Shown: piece by piece, positions 17,873 through 25,429 of the stretch
How the letters are laid out: each line of letters begins with the position of its first letter
Numbering within the stretch: the first letter of the stretch is position 1
NCBI GenBank assembly: GCA_015057515.1
Contig: SVED01000008.1
Coordinates: 1 to 47,811, forward strand
From: Lachnospiraceae bacterium
Lineage (GTDB): Bacteria; Bacillota; Clostridia; Lachnospirales; Lachnospiraceae
DNA length: 47,811 bases
Reading direction: 5' to 3'
Translations under genes and position numbers: made by a program
Notes under the pieces: model-generated
Seen by the model: only the letters and a program-made list of their open reading frames with translations
The model's database searches: none
What the model was told of the DNA's origin: nothing

Positions 17873-18601
17873 ATGATTAAGATTGCGATATGTGATGACG
17901 ATTTAAAGCAACAACTAAATATTAAAGGCTTGGTGGAAAATGTTTTTATCAGAGAAGAACAAACCTACGAAATTATCGAGTATACGTCAGGTGAAAAATT
18001 GGTGACTGATATGCCTGAAGCAAGATACGATATTGTCCTACTGGATATAGATATGCCTACTATGGATGGTATAGAGGTTGCCAACAAAATTGATGAGATT
18101 TGGAAAGATGTAAATGTTGTTTTTGTCACAAATAGAAGTGATTTGGTGTTTGAGGCCTTAAGCTGTAATCCATACAGATTTATTCGAAAAGAATATATGG
18201 AGGAAGGTATAGATGAAGCTATGTCGTCCTTGATAACAAAGATATCTAATGAGACTTATGTTGTATCCTTTGGAGACAAGAAGGAACATTATAGCTTTAA
18301 AATTAATGATTTGGTATATATTGAAAGTAAGAAACATTATGTGTATTTTCGTCTTGATGATGAGGAAGAGTACAAGATACGAGATAGACTTGCTAACTAT
18401 GAAAAAAAGCTAGCAGACTATGGTTTTATAAAAATTCACGGAAGCATTTTAGTAAATGTAAGAAAGATAAGAAAAATAAGTAGTGTGGAAGTAGTGTTGG
18501 TAAATGGTGAGAAACTTCCTATAAGCAGAAGCAACTCAGAAAAAATAAAGATGCACTTTTTGAATGAGATGAGGAGACATGTGAATGGAGTTATTGTATA
18601 A
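17873..18601 (+). CDS. LytTR-family response regulator (AgrA-like)
   Basis: MIKIAICDDDLKQQ, LLDIDMPTMDGIEVA receiver; C-terminal LytTR domain (YIESKKHYVYFRL...FIKIHGSILVNVRKI). Confidence 0.94.
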   Translation: MIKIAICDDDLKQQLNIKGLVENVFIREEQTYEIIEYTSGEKLVTDMPEARYDIVLLDIDMPTMDGIEVANKIDEIWKDVNVVFVTNRSDLVFEALSCNPYRFIRKEYMEEGIDEAMSSLITKISNETYVVSFGDKKEHYSFKINDLVYIESKKHYVYFRLDDEEEYKIRDRLANYEKKLADYGFIKIHGSILVNVRKIRKISSVEVVLVNGEKLPISRSNSEKIKMHFLNEMRRHVNGVIV

Positions 18602-19883
18602 CATATCTGAGATGGTGGCAAATATAATAGATGGTTTACTGGGACCTGTATTTATATCATTACTGTGTGGAAAAAAAGACCATATTAAATGGCATTTGTT
18701 TATAATAGGACTAATAATATCAGCTATACCATTAAGTCTGTTATCATTATATGTTTCTATTGTGCCAATACAGGTACTGGTATTTTTTATAGTATTAATG
18801 TCTTTTTCTATAATTTTTTTGGATAAAGGGATAGGAAAGAAGTTTTATGCAGTTTTCATTTGGAATGTTGTTCTTATGTTGAGCAATATGCTGGTAGTAT
18901 ATGGTGTGGTAAATATTTTTAAGTGGGATAATGAGGTGGTTCTGCAATCAGGAAGCGTGCAAAGAGTGTTGCTTATTATAATTCATAAAATAGTGCTGGC
19001 TTTAATGTGTATATTATTTATTTATTATGATAACCGTCATTCTATGGATTATAAGCAATGGTTAATCACTATTATCCAATTTGTTGGTACACTCTTTATT
19101 GGGGCTATAATAACTGACTTATATATGAAAGATATTTTTGACGAATCAAACGTTGGTGAGTTAATTATTATGACATTGGCTTTGTTTGTTATATGTATAG
19201 CAGTATGTATATGCCAACATATTATAAATAAGCAAAATCAGTATAAGTTAGAATATGAAAAGCTTCGCACACATTTAGAAAGTGAAGAGAGAAACATTGA
19301 GAAAATACAGGAACTATATGAGAATAGCAGTATATTACGACATGATATAAAACATTATGCCGTAATGGTTAAGGAGCTATTAAAGAAAGAAGAATATGAA
19401 AAAATAGAGCACATTATGGATGATATGATAGAGGAAAAACTGGTTAATGACACAGTTTTATACACATCAAGTGGTATGCTAAATGCTGTATTAAATAATA
19501 AGCTATCCATATGTAAAAAGCATAATGTAAGATTTGATGTAGAAGTAAGTTGTACAATTCCAGAGGAAAAACTTCTTAACATATGTGTTGTTATGGCTAA
19601 TCTTTTGGATAATGCCATTGAAGCTGAAAAGAAAGAGGATGATAAAGCCGTATGCTGTAAAATAAAAAAGAATAAGGATATGTTAAATATATATATAAGT
19701 AATAACATTTCCGAATCAGTGTTAGAAGCTAATCCAAAGCTTGTCACAACAAAAAATGATAAACGACAACATGGCTTTGGCACAAAAAGTATAATAAAAA
19801 GAGTGAAAGAGATGGACGGAATATATAATGTAAGTGAAGATAGGAAAAAGTTTATAATAGAGATTTTTGTACCATATGCGTAG
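18585..19883 (+). CDS. GHKL sensor histidine kinase (AgrC-like)
   Basis: Polytopic N-terminus, SSILRHDIKHYAVMV H-box, MANLLDNAIEAEKKEDD N-box; overlaps RR gene. Confidence 0.93.
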   Translation: MELLYNISEMVANIIDGLLGPVFISLLCGKKDHIKWHLFIIGLIISAIPLSLLSLYVSIVPIQVLVFFIVLMSFSIIFLDKGIGKKFYAVFIWNVVLMLSNMLVVYGVVNIFKWDNEVVLQSGSVQRVLLIIIHKIVLALMCILFIYYDNRHSMDYKQWLITIIQFVGTLFIGAIITDLYMKDIFDESNVGELIIMTLALFVICIAVCICQHIINKQNQYKLEYEKLRTHLESEERNIEKIQELYENSSILRHDIKHYAVMVKELLKKEEYEKIEHIMDDMIEEKLVNDTVLYTSSGMLNAVLNNKLSICKKHNVRFDVEVSCTIPEEKLLNICVVMANLLDNAIEAEKKEDDKAVCCKIKKNKDMLNIYISNNISESVLEANPKLVTTKNDKRQHGFGTKSIIKRVKEMDGIYNVSEDRKKFIIEIFVPYA

Positions 19884-19891
19884 GTGAAGTT

Positions 19892-19925
19892 TGCAAATCT
19901 TGCCAGAAATCTGCAAATCTTGCCA
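19892..19925 (+). promoter_or_regulatory. Candidate tandem LytTR response-regulator site upstream of agrB
   Basis: Perfect 14-bp direct repeat TGCAAATCTTGCCA at 19892-19905 and 19912-19925, 20-bp period, followed by TTGAAA at 19931 and TATCAT at 19955. Confidence 0.55.
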
Positions 19926-19980
19926 AGCCATTGAAAAAAAGTAGAAAAGAAAGCTATCATATCTGTAAGGAGGATATTCT

Positions 19981-20559
19981 ATGATTTCAGATATGATGGC
20001 TTTTTATTTGTTGAATAAAAAACTAATTACTGAGGATGAATTGCCCATATATAAGTACGGATTAAGTGCGTTTGTGAATAGTTTTTCTCAGATTATTTTG
20101 TTATTCCTCTTGGGGGTTTGTTGTGGAGTGGTGTCTGAAACTGTGGCGTTCTTGTTGGTGTTTATATTAATAAGGCGTTTTACAGGAGGTTATCATGCGG
20201 ATACAAAGATGAAGTGCTTGGTGTGTGGTGTATTTATGTGGTTTATTGCCACCTCGGTGAGCAAAGTTTCATTATCTCATAATGTGATTGTGATTTTATA
20301 TCTGGTCATAGTTATATTCTCTGTTGTTATAACATTTAAATATGCACCAGTAGAGCATTATAATAAGCCGTTGAGCAGAAGCATATATGAAAAAAATAAG
20401 AAGTATAGTCGTATTTGCCTGGGTGTTTTCGAATTGCTGGGAGTGTGGCTGCTTTTTATTGATACATCTCTCAGTTATACCATTATGATGACTATTTTTC
20501 TGGTAAGCATATTAATTCTTATAGGAAGGAGGGATTGTCGTGAAAAACTTAGTAGGTAA
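19981..20559 (+). CDS. agrB: Accessory gene regulator B (AIP-processing protease)
   Basis: RRFTGGYHADTKMKCLVCGV with conserved His/Cys; polytopic membrane protein. Confidence 0.95.
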   Translation: MISDMMAFYLLNKKLITEDELPIYKYGLSAFVNSFSQIILLFLLGVCCGVVSETVAFLLVFILIRRFTGGYHADTKMKCLVCGVFMWFIATSVSKVSLSHNVIVILYLVIVIFSVVITFKYAPVEHYNKPLSRSIYEKNKKYSRICLGVFELLGVWLLFIDTSLSYTIMMTIFLVSILILIGRRDCREKLSR

Positions 20560-20686
20560 GGTTATCAAAGCAGTTGGTGAAGAAACTGCAAAGATTACCG
20601 TTAATAAGGCTTCGGTGTGGATGTTATATCAGGAAGAAGAACCACAGTCAGTAAGAGAAAGATTTGTGGCAAGTGAGGAGGAATAG
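20540..20686 (+). CDS. agrD: AgrD-like cyclic lactone autoinducer propeptide (48 aa), absent from the ORF track
   Basis: GTG start with aggaggg RBS; MKNLVGKVIKAVGEETAKITVNKASVWMLYQEEEPQSVRERFVASEEE; amphipathic N-term, SVWMLYQ..P core, acidic C-tail; overlaps agrB 3' end. Confidence 0.82.
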   Translation: MKNLVGKVIKAVGEETAKITVNKASVWMLYQEEEPQSVRERFVASEEE

Positions 20687-20688
20687 AG

Positions 20689-21159
20689 ATGAAGAAATTA
20701 AGAAGCAGATTAGTAATGATGACAATGGTAGCAATGTTGGCAATTATAGGGTTTAGTAATAGTGGCGATACCTTGGCTGGAAATACCGCTGATGCTACAT
20801 GGTCATTTTCGCTGAGTGTTAGTAATTCAAATATTCAAAAAATAACCAAAAGGGAGAAAACCGATACTACAAAAATTTATTTACAATGGAGTAGTACCTA
20901 TGGTGGTAATTTATCTGCTATATACGTTTCTCCATATGGTGCAAATAGTTTATCAGGTGGTTCATCTCCTGCAGGAACAAGTGGTGGCGGAGAGGTGTTT
21001 TATAGAGTGCCTTCAACTGGACAATATTCTTTAACCAATTATGTTAAGGAACTTGGATATGGATATGCTACAGTAGGTATGAAGGGTGCTGCCGGTTCGG
21101 GAACTGCGAAAGGCAACTGGAGTCCTGACAGCCGATACAATTATACTATTTTATATTAA
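20689..21159 (+). CDS. Small secreted protein of unknown function (signal peptide; possibly DUF2712-like)
   Basis: MKKLRSRLVMMTMVAMLAIIGFSNSGDTLAG signal peptide; Gly/Ser/Tyr-rich mature part ending GNWSPDSRYNYTILY. Confidence 0.75.
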   Translation: MKKLRSRLVMMTMVAMLAIIGFSNSGDTLAGNTADATWSFSLSVSNSNIQKITKREKTDTTKIYLQWSSTYGGNLSAIYVSPYGANSLSGGSSPAGTSGGGEVFYRVPSTGQYSLTNYVKELGYGYATVGMKGAAGSGTAKGNWSPDSRYNYTILY

Positions 21160-21169
21160 GGAGTGCCAT

Positions 21170-21955
21170 ATGAAAAGAGTATGCTACATAATTGGCATTA
21201 CAGTACTCTTTTTGTGCATTTTCCTTGTTGGTTTAAAGCGTAGAGGTGAACGGGAAGAGCAGGCAGTTGCTCCTTCCAACATCTCTGTAAGAGATGAGCC
21301 GGAGGACTATGTGGAGGAAGATATTAGTATTGCCACAGATGGGGACGCAGATAGGTATGCTGAAAAAAATGAAGATAATGTATACACAATGTCAGATGGA
21401 GCCTGTGTATATGATGGCTTTGCTTATGAGATTGTTGAGGCTAAGATGTATGATTCTCTTGACGAATTTATGCAGATGGATGGATATAATGAAGAATATC
21501 ATAATTTACACAAATTTTGGACAGAAGAGGACAAAACTGTTTCAGTGATTGTATATGTAAAATATAAACTTACCAATATAAGCGATTCAGCTTATAGAGA
21601 CTTAAATATTACTCAATTGGGTGTTGCATATGTCAATGAAGCAGGAGAAACAAGTGGTGGAATTGATTCATATGGAGCAGGACCATATATTGAAGCAATA
21701 TATGCAACCATCCCGGAAAATGCCATAGATGAAAAAAATTTTGATTGTCCTAGACTTGCGCCCCAGGAAACCATTGAACTTGAAATCGCATTTCTTAACA
21801 CAGGTATAAATAAGGATGGTGTTTGGTGTAAGCCTTACGAAATGTATGATGGGGAGTGGTATTTTACAAGCGAGGGCTACAATATATGTATGACTACAGT
21901 ATATAACATATATGAGGACACGGAGCATATAAAAATAAAAATGGATATGGATTAA
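21170..21955 (+). CDS. Membrane-anchored extracellular protein, unknown function
   Basis: Single N-terminal TM (VCYIIGITVLFLCIFLVGL) then acidic soluble domain; RBS aaggag before ATG 21170. Confidence 0.75.
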   Translation: MKRVCYIIGITVLFLCIFLVGLKRRGEREEQAVAPSNISVRDEPEDYVEEDISIATDGDADRYAEKNEDNVYTMSDGACVYDGFAYEIVEAKMYDSLDEFMQMDGYNEEYHNLHKFWTEEDKTVSVIVYVKYKLTNISDSAYRDLNITQLGVAYVNEAGETSGGIDSYGAGPYIEAIYATIPENAIDEKNFDCPRLAPQETIELEIAFLNTGINKDGVWCKPYEMYDGEWYFTSEGYNICMTTVYNIYEDTEHIKIKMDMD

Positions 21956-21980: not shown

Positions 21981-22559
21981 TTGAAAAAATACAATCTTAA
22001 AAAGATATGCATTTTGGCTGTCTGTATATTAATAATAATTCTTGTTATATGTCGTGTTTCTTATGTTACAAAAAATGCCCGTGTTCCTGATTTGAATGTT
22101 GTACCCCAGGGGGATAGTGTTGTTTACAAGGGATTGGGATATAGGATAGTAGATGCGGCTTTGTGGGAGTATGACTATTTTTTTGAACAGAACGAAAATC
22201 TTAATAGATATAAGGAAGAATTAATAGATAATGAGATAATGCTGCTTGTTGTGGAAATGGAAATTACAAAGGAGGGTGATAATGGCTATATAGACTATTA
22301 TATGCCTATAAAATATTTCTATGGATTTAACGGTGTATCCCCCTTTATGTTTGCTGATATGAATCCGTCTTTGGTTGATGGTACATTTCACTCAGGTGAT
22401 CATATATATGTGGTTTATGAGATATACAAAAATTCTCTATTGGAAAGTCAATGGAGTGATGTGGTAAATTTTCAGGTTGAATATAGAATTCTACTTGGAA
22501 GCTATCCTGAAAAAAATGAACTACAGATTACAGATATACGAAGAGGTGGTGCAGAATGA
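21981..22559 (+). CDS. Membrane-anchored extracellular protein, apparent paralogue of preceding gene
   Basis: TTG start, N-terminal TM, YKGLGYRIVDAALWEYDYFFEQNENLNRYKEEL comparable to YDGFAYEIVEAKMYDSLDEFMQMDGYNEEYHNL of 21170-21955. Confidence 0.72.
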   Translation: MKKYNLKKICILAVCILIIILVICRVSYVTKNARVPDLNVVPQGDSVVYKGLGYRIVDAALWEYDYFFEQNENLNRYKEELIDNEIMLLVVEMEITKEGDNGYIDYYMPIKYFYGFNGVSPFMFADMNPSLVDGTFHSGDHIYVVYEIYKNSLLESQWSDVVNFQVEYRILLGSYPEKNELQITDIRRGGAE

Positions 22560-23431
22560 TACAATTAGTAAAATTGGAAATAAGTAAAGCGTTAAAGACA
22601 AAAGGCTTTTTTGTAGCAATAGGAATCGGACTGGTTATTTCCATACTGCAAAGCTATTGGTTTTACAATAATGTGTTTACCAATAATAATGAAATATTCG
22701 AGTATTTGATGTCCTTGTCCCCCACAGATTCCCATTATTATGACTTGTGGTTTGAAAATGTTTTTTTAGAAGGATGGCTGGGCTGTGAAGTATATTCTCC
22801 ATACAATAATTTGTTTTATCTTGCCATGCCTTTGCTTGCAGTATTACCCTTTGGCCACAGCTTGTATATGGAGTGGAATAAGGGATATTCATCACAGATT
22901 CTTATAAGAAGTAACAGAAAGAAGTATTTTACAGCAAAGTTCTTAGCAGTATTTATGAGTGGTGGTCTTGCAATTGCAATACCGTTAATATTTAATCTTA
23001 TTATCACAGTATGTTATCTGCCTATTATTCCGGGGGATCCTGTATCTGCGCAGGTGGCAGTTTTTAATATAGGTTTATGGCCGGATTTGTATTTTAATCA
23101 TCCTCTATTATATGCTTTTGCATATATAGCTCTTGATTTTATATGTGGGGGATTAATGGCTTGTATGGCTCTTACTGTCACACATTTTTTTGATAGCGTA
23201 TTTGCTGTCATGCTGTTTCCTTTATTGTTGAATTGTATATTATATTATGGTCTGGACAGTATAGAACCAGCATCCAGAATTTATAATATAAGCTGGTTTG
23301 TCAATCCTGGTCAGCCGGGAATTCGAAACGATTTTAATGCGGTGATTATAACATCAGGGATATGGTTTTTATTACTGGTTATACTTCATTTCGCTTCTAA
23401 TATAAAAAGAGATGTAATAAAAGAGAGGTAA
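22556..23431 (+). CDS. ABC transporter permease-like membrane protein
   Basis: Polytopic, N-term LVKLEISKALKTKGFFVAIGIGLV; overlaps upstream gene, adjacent to ATPase. Confidence 0.8.
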   Translation: MIQLVKLEISKALKTKGFFVAIGIGLVISILQSYWFYNNVFTNNNEIFEYLMSLSPTDSHYYDLWFENVFLEGWLGCEVYSPYNNLFYLAMPLLAVLPFGHSLYMEWNKGYSSQILIRSNRKKYFTAKFLAVFMSGGLAIAIPLIFNLIITVCYLPIIPGDPVSAQVAVFNIGLWPDLYFNHPLLYAFAYIALDFICGGLMACMALTVTHFFDSVFAVMLFPLLLNCILYYGLDSIEPASRIYNISWFVNPGQPGIRNDFNAVIITSGIWFLLLVILHFASNIKRDVIKER

Positions 23432-23434
23432 ACA

Positions 23435-24076
23435 ATGAAAATTGAGCTAAAAAATATTACAAAAAAAATAAAGAAAAATACTGTGATTGATGATATAAAT
23501 TATACATTTACAGGAGGATGCATATATGGTCTTGCAGGAAAAAACGGATGTGGAAAAACCATGCTTATGCGTCTTATTGCAGGGCTAATTTATCCCACAG
23601 AAGGCAAAGTATACATAAATGATAGGATGCTCGGAAAGGATATATCTTTTCCGGACAGTATAGGTATACTGATTGAAAATCCAGAGTTTTTGAACGATTA
23701 TACAGGATATGAAAATCTAAAAATGCTGGCAGGCTTACAGAAAAATGTCAGTGATGAGGACATAAAGAATACTCTGGAAAGTGTGGGACTGGACTATAAC
23801 GACAAAAGAAAATTCTATAAATATTCCCTTGGAATGAGACAGAGACTGGGCATTGCCGCTGCGATTATGGGCAAGCCAGACATTATTTTACTGGACGAGC
23901 CAATAAATGCAATTGATGAGGAAGGCGTTGCCCAGATAAAAGAGTTGATTCGTGGACTGGTGGAAGAAAACAGGATAATAATCATTGCCTGTCACGATAA
24001 GGAAGAGATGGATTATCTTGCAGATAAAAAACTTATGATGTCAGCAGGTAAAATTGTGGAGGAGATAATTATATGA
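23435..24076 (+). CDS. ABC transporter ATP-binding protein
   Basis: GLAGKNGCGKTMLMRLIAGL Walker A, YSLGMRQRLGIAAA signature, IILLDEPINAID Walker B. Confidence 0.96.
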   Translation: MKIELKNITKKIKKNTVIDDINYTFTGGCIYGLAGKNGCGKTMLMRLIAGLIYPTEGKVYINDRMLGKDISFPDSIGILIENPEFLNDYTGYENLKMLAGLQKNVSDEDIKNTLESVGLDYNDKRKFYKYSLGMRQRLGIAAAIMGKPDIILLDEPINAIDEEGVAQIKELIRGLVEENRIIIIACHDKEEMDYLADKKLMMSAGKIVEEIII

Positions 24077-24921
24077 TATTTAGATTTGTTTCACATGATT
24101 TAAATGAAGGCATAATCCGGTACAGAAAAAGATATCTGCTAATAATTCTTGTGGCAATTATATCCTGTTTCATGCTGGACAGAAGTACTGAATATATTAC
24201 TACAACCTATGGAGGATATTGGACCCCGCTTGAATATGGAATCAATTTATTTTTAGGAAGATATCCATTTGTATATAGACCTGACAGCATGGATACCTTC
24301 ACAGTACCCTTTGTATGGATATTGACATATATTTTACTTGCTTTTGTTATAGGGGATTATGTACAAAAAGATATGCAGGGCTATGGTATGTATATGATGC
24401 TCAAAAGTAAAAAGCGTTCCTATTGGTGGATTTCAAAATGTGTGTGGTGTGTTATTGTAAATTTGGTCTATTTTGGATTAATATGGTTGACATATATATC
24501 CTATGCGTGGATGAAAAATGGGGATATAGCCATTTATAAAAACTTATTCATTAGAAGTAATTATTTTGGTTGGCGTTTTGAAGATAAGAGCGTAGGATTT
24601 TTAATAATGATGGTTGTGGTTATGCCGATTTTAGTAGGTGTTGTACAGTCCATAATACAGATTTTTTTATCTGTTGTGTTTGATGCAACAGTAACTATGG
24701 TGTTTGTTGCCGGGGGACTGGTTTTAAGCTGCTATTATGGTAACCCGTTAATCCCCCATGGATACGGTATGTTACTAAGATATTATAAAGATGAATCCAA
24801 CCCTGATTTTGTTCCAAATGATATTCAAAGCGGAATAGTGATTTTGCTTACAATGATAGTTATTGCTACAGTAGTTGGGTATGTTTTTTTTAGAAGGAAA
24901 AATATACTTAGTAGACGGTAG
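24073..24921 (+). CDS. ABC-associated membrane protein / permease
   Basis: Polytopic; overlaps ATPase by 4 nt. Confidence 0.75.
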   Translation: MIFRFVSHDLNEGIIRYRKRYLLIILVAIISCFMLDRSTEYITTTYGGYWTPLEYGINLFLGRYPFVYRPDSMDTFTVPFVWILTYILLAFVIGDYVQKDMQGYGMYMMLKSKKRSYWWISKCVWCVIVNLVYFGLIWLTYISYAWMKNGDIAIYKNLFIRSNYFGWRFEDKSVGFLIMMVVVMPILVGVVQSIIQIFLSVVFDATVTMVFVAGGLVLSCYYGNPLIPHGYGMLLRYYKDESNPDFVPNDIQSGIVILLTMIVIATVVGYVFFRRKNILSRR

Positions 24922-25030: not shown

Positions 25031-25429
25031 ATGAAAAAAATACACTTTATATGCTTATTATTGTTACTTTGCTTATGTGGATGTTCCAAAGAATCTGACA
25101 AGGCTGAAAAGGAGGTTAATTCTGGAACAGATGCTTCAGATGTTGAATACATAGATGAGTCGGATTTTTTGCAATCCATTGATGAACAGGCTAAAATCTG
25201 GCAAAATGGTTGTGATAGTATTATAACAGATATATCCAATATCGAATGGGTAGAAAGTGTAAGCATTACACCTTCTGGTTATGAAGAATATATGTCTGCC
25301 GGAAAATGTACCATAACTTGCTCTGTGAATGATGTTGCGCCAGATGAAGCTGATGTAAGGAAAACTCTTGAAGATTATCTGGATGCAGCTAATATTATTA
25401 CAAATTACGAGTTGATTATTATAAATTAA
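25031..25429 (+). CDS. Small lipoprotein of unknown function
   Basis: MKKIHFICLLLLLCLCGCSKES lipobox. Confidence 0.75.
   Translation: MKKIHFICLLLLLCLCGCSKESDKAEKEVNSGTDASDVEYIDESDFLQSIDEQAKIWQNGCDSIITDISNIEWVESVSITPSGYEEYMSAGKCTITCSVNDVAPDEADVRKTLEDYLDAANIITNYELIIIN

Follow-up and report, generated by a model that had tools for sequence, protein, structure and literature searches.

A cysteine-free AgrD propeptide and its predicted serine-lactone signal in an agr locus of gut Lachnospiraceae

In a Lachnospiraceae bacterium, an agrB gene is overlapped at its 3' end by a short open reading frame (ORF) whose product lacks cysteine, and the question raised by this locus is whether the ORF encodes an AgrD propeptide and, if so, which residue closes the ring of the signal and which ring is released. 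The window, that is, the whole 47,811-nucleotide stretch analysed, is contig C81 in a draft genome of 2.15 Mb and 85% completeness. On gene content, homology, conservation and operator recurrence, the reading favoured here, with a probability of about 85%, is agr-type quorum sensing in gut Lachnospiraceae with a Ser25 lactone of the sequence SVWML as signal, in which the cut, the lactone, the sensing and the regulation are predicted steps. The features of the locus were the following:

17873-18601, + strand: agrA-like response regulator with a LytTR DNA-binding domain (Pfam Response_reg 8e-17, LytTR 3e-19)
18585-19883, + strand: agrC-like membrane sensor kinase with a GHKL ATPase domain (Pfam HATPase_c_5 9e-20)
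19892-19925, + strand: tandem direct repeat of TGCAAATCTTGCCA, period 20, predicted site of the LytTR regulator (two exact copies, at 19892-19905 and 19912-19925)
19931-19960, + strand: sigma-70-like promoter TTGAAA-N18-TATCAT just 3' of the operator, called by consensus match only (10/12 positions)
19981-20559, + strand: agrB, membrane peptidase/cyclase with a His72/Cys79 dyad (Pfam AgrB PF04647, 133.9 bits)
20526-20533, + strand: agrD Shine-Dalgarno sequence AAGGAGGG, within agrB (read from the sequence; conserved in L033, the locus of the relative RGIG8516)
20540-20686, + strand: agrD, Cys-less 48-aa propeptide with predicted core S25-V-W-M-L29 and predicted cut before Y30 (TIGR04223; Ser25 invariance)
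20689-21159, + strand: 156-aa secreted beta-rich protein, probable member of the agr operon (family motif; AlphaFold model)
21170-21955 and 21981-22559, + strand: two exported or membrane-anchored proteins (N-terminal hydrophobic segment; order retained in L033)
22556-23431, 23435-24076 and 24073-24921, + strand: permease, ATPase and permease of an ABC transporter
25031-25429, + strand: small lipoprotein (paralogue on contig C43)

By domain content, AgrB, AgrD, the GHKL kinase and the LytTR regulator together are a complete agr locus. The H-x6-C dyad of AgrB was present in 150/150 AgrBs compared, the AgrC-like kinase has about 6 transmembrane segments predicted from hydropathy, and no PDB relatives of AgrB or AgrD were found by sequence.

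The ORF at 20540-20686 is, by family score and context, a genuine agrD. The first-pass annotation had described a 48-aa ORF with a ribosome-binding site overlapping the agrB 3' end, and this was confirmed together with its coordinates: the start codon is GTG, AAGGAGGG lies 6 nt before it, and the overlap with agrB is 20 nt. Translation gave the same sequence as before, with 0 cysteines. The product scored 22.9 bits (E = 7e-5; hmmscan, NCBIfam) against TIGR04223, the AgrD family cyclic lactone autoinducer peptide, which has a curated cut-off of 19 bits, and this score and the adjacent agrB bore out the AgrD identity proposed earlier. No Pfam-A family was matched at E <= 1, but a peptide this short and divergent need not match one. 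Chance overlapping ORFs are frequent, so a spurious ORF within the end of agrB, with another ORF as the true AgrB substrate, was weighed; it is scarcely credible against the curated family score, the homologues across the genus and the conserved start, overlap and Shine-Dalgarno sequence, the equivalent 48-codon ORF of RGIG8516 having kept both its GTG start and its overlap with agrB. The only two other TIGR04223 matches in the genome were weak, below the cut-off and on other contigs. The AgrD layout proposed in the earlier annotation stood in part: the N-terminal part is basic (+3), the tail is acidic (-5) and Pro35 is the sixth residue past the predicted L29|Y30 cut, while the amphipathic N-terminal helix stood less firmly, the hydrophobic moment of residues 2-21 (0.365) being equalled or exceeded in 850 of 10000 shuffles.

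Conservation pointed to Ser25 as the ring-closing residue. Seven near homologues of the genus (L005 and L033 counted as one) share ten invariant AgrD positions, which include N22, A24, S25, W27, Q31, E34 and P35. The loss of Ser25 from homologues next to agrB had been named as an observation that would speak against the prediction, and Ser25 was invariant in 7/7. The closest named relative is the metagenome-assembled genome Lachnospiraceae bacterium RGIG8516 from water deer caecum, whose AgrB is 81% identical. Its AgrD is 75% identical and differs from that of the window at 16 codons; codons 26, 28, 29 and 30 carry nonsynonymous changes, and codon 25 is TCG in the window and TCA in RGIG8516, both serine. 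Between the same two genomes, AgrB divergence peaks at residues 145-168 (46% identity), in the C-terminal half, and the sensor half of AgrC is 54-83% identical by window against 83-100% for the remainder. Groups of agr specificity are known to differ in ring, processor and sensor together, and the parallel divergence of the AgrD ring, AgrB and AgrC would fit such groups. Specificity for serine or cysteine is not readable from the AgrB sequence.

The position of Ser25 was also compared across more distant AgrDs. Among the 48 clostridial ones without cysteine at P-12 to P-9, counted back from the conserved proline, serine was present at P-11 to P-9 in 47/48 and at the next three positions in only 7/48, a comparison that is independent of the nucleophile label. 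In Cys-type AgrDs, the cysteine occupies the column where the others carry serine, and Ser25 stands at P-10, the commonest nucleophile column (cysteine at P-10 in 80/98). The proposed nucleophile position is thus supported by homology, by codon-level constraint and by the exchange of serine and cysteine at one column, and Ser25 is the best-supported candidate in the sequence. Were Ser25 no nucleophile, AgrB would only cleave and a linear peptide would be released; this is very improbable given the serine in 47/48 AgrDs that lack cysteine at the site, the solely silent change at codon 25 and the inactivity of the linear pentapeptide of Clostridium thermocellum (PMC5322536).

Comparison with that organism also bears on the ring boundary. 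C. thermocellum Clo1313_2818 gives a Ser25-Phe29 lactone pentapeptide, which LC-MS/MS confirmed by comparison with a synthetic standard and of which only the cyclic form had activity (PMC5322536). By the reported numbering, the window AgrD shares with it Ser25, a five-residue ring from Ser25 to residue 29, Tyr30, Pro35 and a clostridial host, whereas Clo1313_2818 has no adjacent agr operon reported (PMC5322536) and the window agrD has AgrB, the kinase and the regulator beside it. A ring of six residues, SVWMLY, cut after Tyr30, would resemble the six-residue AIP rings predicted in some clostridia (PMC10301443), and the L002 AgrD of the same genome, with its serine one residue further from the proline, suggests such a ring; for the window peptide it is improbable, since Ser25 lies in the commonest nucleophile column, P-10, and the C. 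thermocellum peptide with the same Ser25, Tyr30 and Pro35 yields a five-residue ring (PMC5322536). SVWML is preferred over SVWMLY because the spacing of Ser25, Tyr30 and Pro35 equals that of the C. thermocellum AgrD, and the core proposed earlier is further supported by homology, codon constraint and the serine/cysteine exchange at its first position. A serine where most AgrDs have cysteine makes a small lactone ring (Ser-Val-Trp-Met-Leu) closed through oxygen the very probable product. The calculated [M+H]+ of cyclic SVWML is 617.3116, and those with one to three tail residues are 688.3487, 816.4437 and 930.4866; the linear counterparts would be heavier by 18.0106, and cyclic SVWMLY would have 780.3749. 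As a separate observation, five AgrDs (L002, L014, L020, L029 and L037) carry serine at P-11 and then x-Pro (S-x-P), which points to a six-residue serine ring with an internal proline.

The form in which the ring is finally released was considered separately. A Listeria thiolactone, a pentamer with no tail, has a half-life of 1.3 min towards rearrangement, an S-to-N shift likewise seen in Ruminiclostridium cellulolyticum, and its lactone analogue was 48% rearranged after 22 h at pH 7 and 37 C, the product being a homodetic ring of unchanged mass (PMC11297923). Because tail-less pentameric lactones undergo the O-to-N acyl shift, the final signal could be head-to-tail cyclo(SVWML), the lactone being merely an intermediate. 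This variant of the best explanation is compatible with the AgrD identity and the Ser25 chemistry but is rather unlikely: the shift requires a free Ser25 amine, hence a tail-less peptide, the lactone analogue takes hours, not minutes (PMC11297923), and for C. thermocellum a lactone was the reported product (PMC5322536). If serine is favoured, the slower rearrangement of the lactone relative to the thiolactone might be a reason.

For the SVWML lactone, the following route is proposed. AgrB would cleave the AgrD propeptide past Leu29, the fragment being held on Cys79 as a thioester, and the Ser25 hydroxyl would then attack this thioester to give the five-residue SVWML oxygen-lactone, either bare or carrying a short N-terminal tail. 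The leader would be removed and the peptide exported, and the AgrC-like kinase would presumably sense it. In turn, the LytTR regulator would bind the tandem repeat before agrB, and binding would raise expression of agrBD, of the secreted-protein and ABC-transporter genes and of at least one distant lipoprotein gene.

The tandem repeat lies between agrC and agrB. An exact pair of TGCAAATCTTGCCA copies occurred once elsewhere in the genome, against zero for the reversed control, and this second pair (L250, G000:C43, 3132-3164, - strand) is upstream of a gene for a 132-aa lipoprotein, with TATCAT 29 nt further on. The C43 lipoprotein and the product of 25031-25429 in the window are paralogues (34% identity, 8e-25, BLASTP). 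The tandem was retained in RGIG8516 and, at greater distance within the clade, at the loci L018 and L039, 29-30 nt from a -10-like box. This recurrence supports the prediction of a circuit-specific LytTR operator, and the C43 lipoprotein gene is a predicted distant member of the agr regulon. A different tandem half-site was found at the agr paralogue on C20, and the agr paralogues seem, from their upstream sequences, to carry operators of their own. Upstream of agrB in L002 and L037, a different tandem half-site, CGCTCRTGACA / CGTTCGCGACA, with a period of about 21, was observed. A third operator-like site, on C50, had three mismatches and a nearby gene with no evident link, and was treated as chance.

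The cargo genes 3' of agrD are all co-oriented with the agr genes, and their order in RGIG8516 matches through the first permease and the ATPase, as far as that locus was read. The ATPase matched Pfam ABC_tran at 4e-29; both permeases are putative, being assigned by position and hydrophobicity. A conserved C-terminal motif, GSGxxxGxWSPDS, marks the family of the 156-aa protein, and several family members adjoin agr loci of the genus. The AlphaFold model of the 156-aa protein is beta-rich (pLDDT 82), and the best PDB match was weak (E = 0.002, TM 0.41/0.53), with no confident match by fold; no function is therefore claimed. Relatives of this family of about 150 aa, which has no Pfam family, were seen at L014, L020, L042, L049, L166 and L257-L264.

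Two further AgrBs were found in the genome, each followed by a Cys-less AgrD-like ORF with a Ser-type core, SYGRSMPIMIYETKMP on C20 and VSFWFFGEPEFP on C115. This incomplete genome held no Cys-type AgrD above the TIGR04223 cut-off, a model that also misses the C20 and C115 ORFs. The C20 locus is followed (L251, G000:C20, 12103-12940) by a pair of small secreted proteins with no Pfam match, of about 134 and 122 aa, and by large membrane proteins.

Calling AgrDs next to AgrBs from the genus and from a family sample of 150 genomes gave 97 sequences, whose nucleophile site held 59 Cys, 37 Ser and 1 Thr. Serine outnumbered cysteine in the genus sample (23 vs 10), was found in 13/55 AgrDs of the family sample, and was found in 10/49 of a class-wide sample (39 Cys, 10 Ser), a share of about 20-24% in the family and class samples; these ratios are estimates, because the caller was built from mixed seeds, about a third of the AgrB loci (53/150 and 21/70) gave no AgrD call and the class sample was tilted towards AgrBs with better scores. 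In the AgrB tree, the window falls inside a well-supported seven-member clade, all with serine at P-10. On the best tree, 12 changes between the Ser, Cys and Thr states were required; when only branches with good support are counted, a minimum of 6 is still forced for the Cys label and likewise for the Ser label. Serine and cysteine seem to have replaced each other repeatedly as nucleophile. With agrD downstream of agrB there were 26 Ser, 17 Cys and 1 Thr, and with agrD upstream 11 Ser and 42 Cys; an association of serine with the downstream and cysteine with the upstream position found no support in independent pairs on the AgrB tree (median p = 1), and the pattern is thus attributed to clade structure. 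Two observations stand apart. An AgrD-like ORF at L119 has threonine at the site, neither Cys nor Ser (AGFTRFLFYEPEIP), which may be an unusual threonine lactone or a wrong call, and in a family clade (L092, L096, L105, L135, L149 and L153) the ring is preceded by Pro-Pro-x-Cys or a similar sequence (WPPxCxxxxHQPKRP) and agrD lies downstream of agrB.

Serine-lactone chemistry itself is already known and is not new. The staphylococcal precedent given in the first-pass annotation was right but too narrow, since GBAP of Enterococcus faecalis is another case and the closest is that of C. thermocellum (PMC5322536). The AIP of Staphylococcus intermedius/pseudintermedius has serine for cysteine as ring nucleophile, as predicted here, but is a nonamer from Bacilli, whereas the window has a predicted pentapeptide ring; FsrD/GBAP of E. 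faecalis shares AgrB-type processing and a serine lactone, but has a nine-residue ring in an 11-residue peptide, and fsrD lies within fsrB, unlike the window agrD (PMC3673130, PMC12312760). Cys-type clostridial AgrDs (TIGR04223), for example TSACLWYFYQPEEP of L121 and NSACTWIFHQPEFP of L017, share the A-[C/S]-x-W ... Q-x-x-x-P motif, with its spacing, with the window peptide; they form a thiolactone, with agrD mostly upstream of agrB in the genus and family samples, whereas a lactone is predicted for the window.

The reviews consulted treat serine-lactone AIPs as exceptions. Judging by the survey, the Ser-type accounts for roughly one in five to one in four of the clostridial AgrDs that could be read and for the majority in this gut genus, which suggests that Ser-type AgrDs are common in the genus and frequent and interchangeable with the Cys-type across Clostridia. 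The window peptide is therefore less exceptional than first implied. A search mostly outside the subscription literature turned up no earlier survey of Ser-type AgrDs for either Lachnospiraceae or Clostridia, and one may exist. A wider reading is offered tentatively, at somewhat less than even odds: the oxygen-lactone may be a major and repeatedly exchanged alternative to the thiolactone across Clostridia, every agr circuit found in this genome being Ser-based and at least two having an operator of their own, with serine favoured because short tail-less lactones last hours, not minutes. The site-specific exchange of serine and cysteine makes the tolerance of AgrB for either nucleophile directly testable, and likewise whether the swap tunes signal lifetime. 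Genome mining that requires a core cysteine would miss many gut signals, and the recurring operator provides a handle on the genes controlled by the agr circuit. The frequency and interchangeability of Ser-type AgrDs across Clostridia would be a more interesting result than the single peptide.
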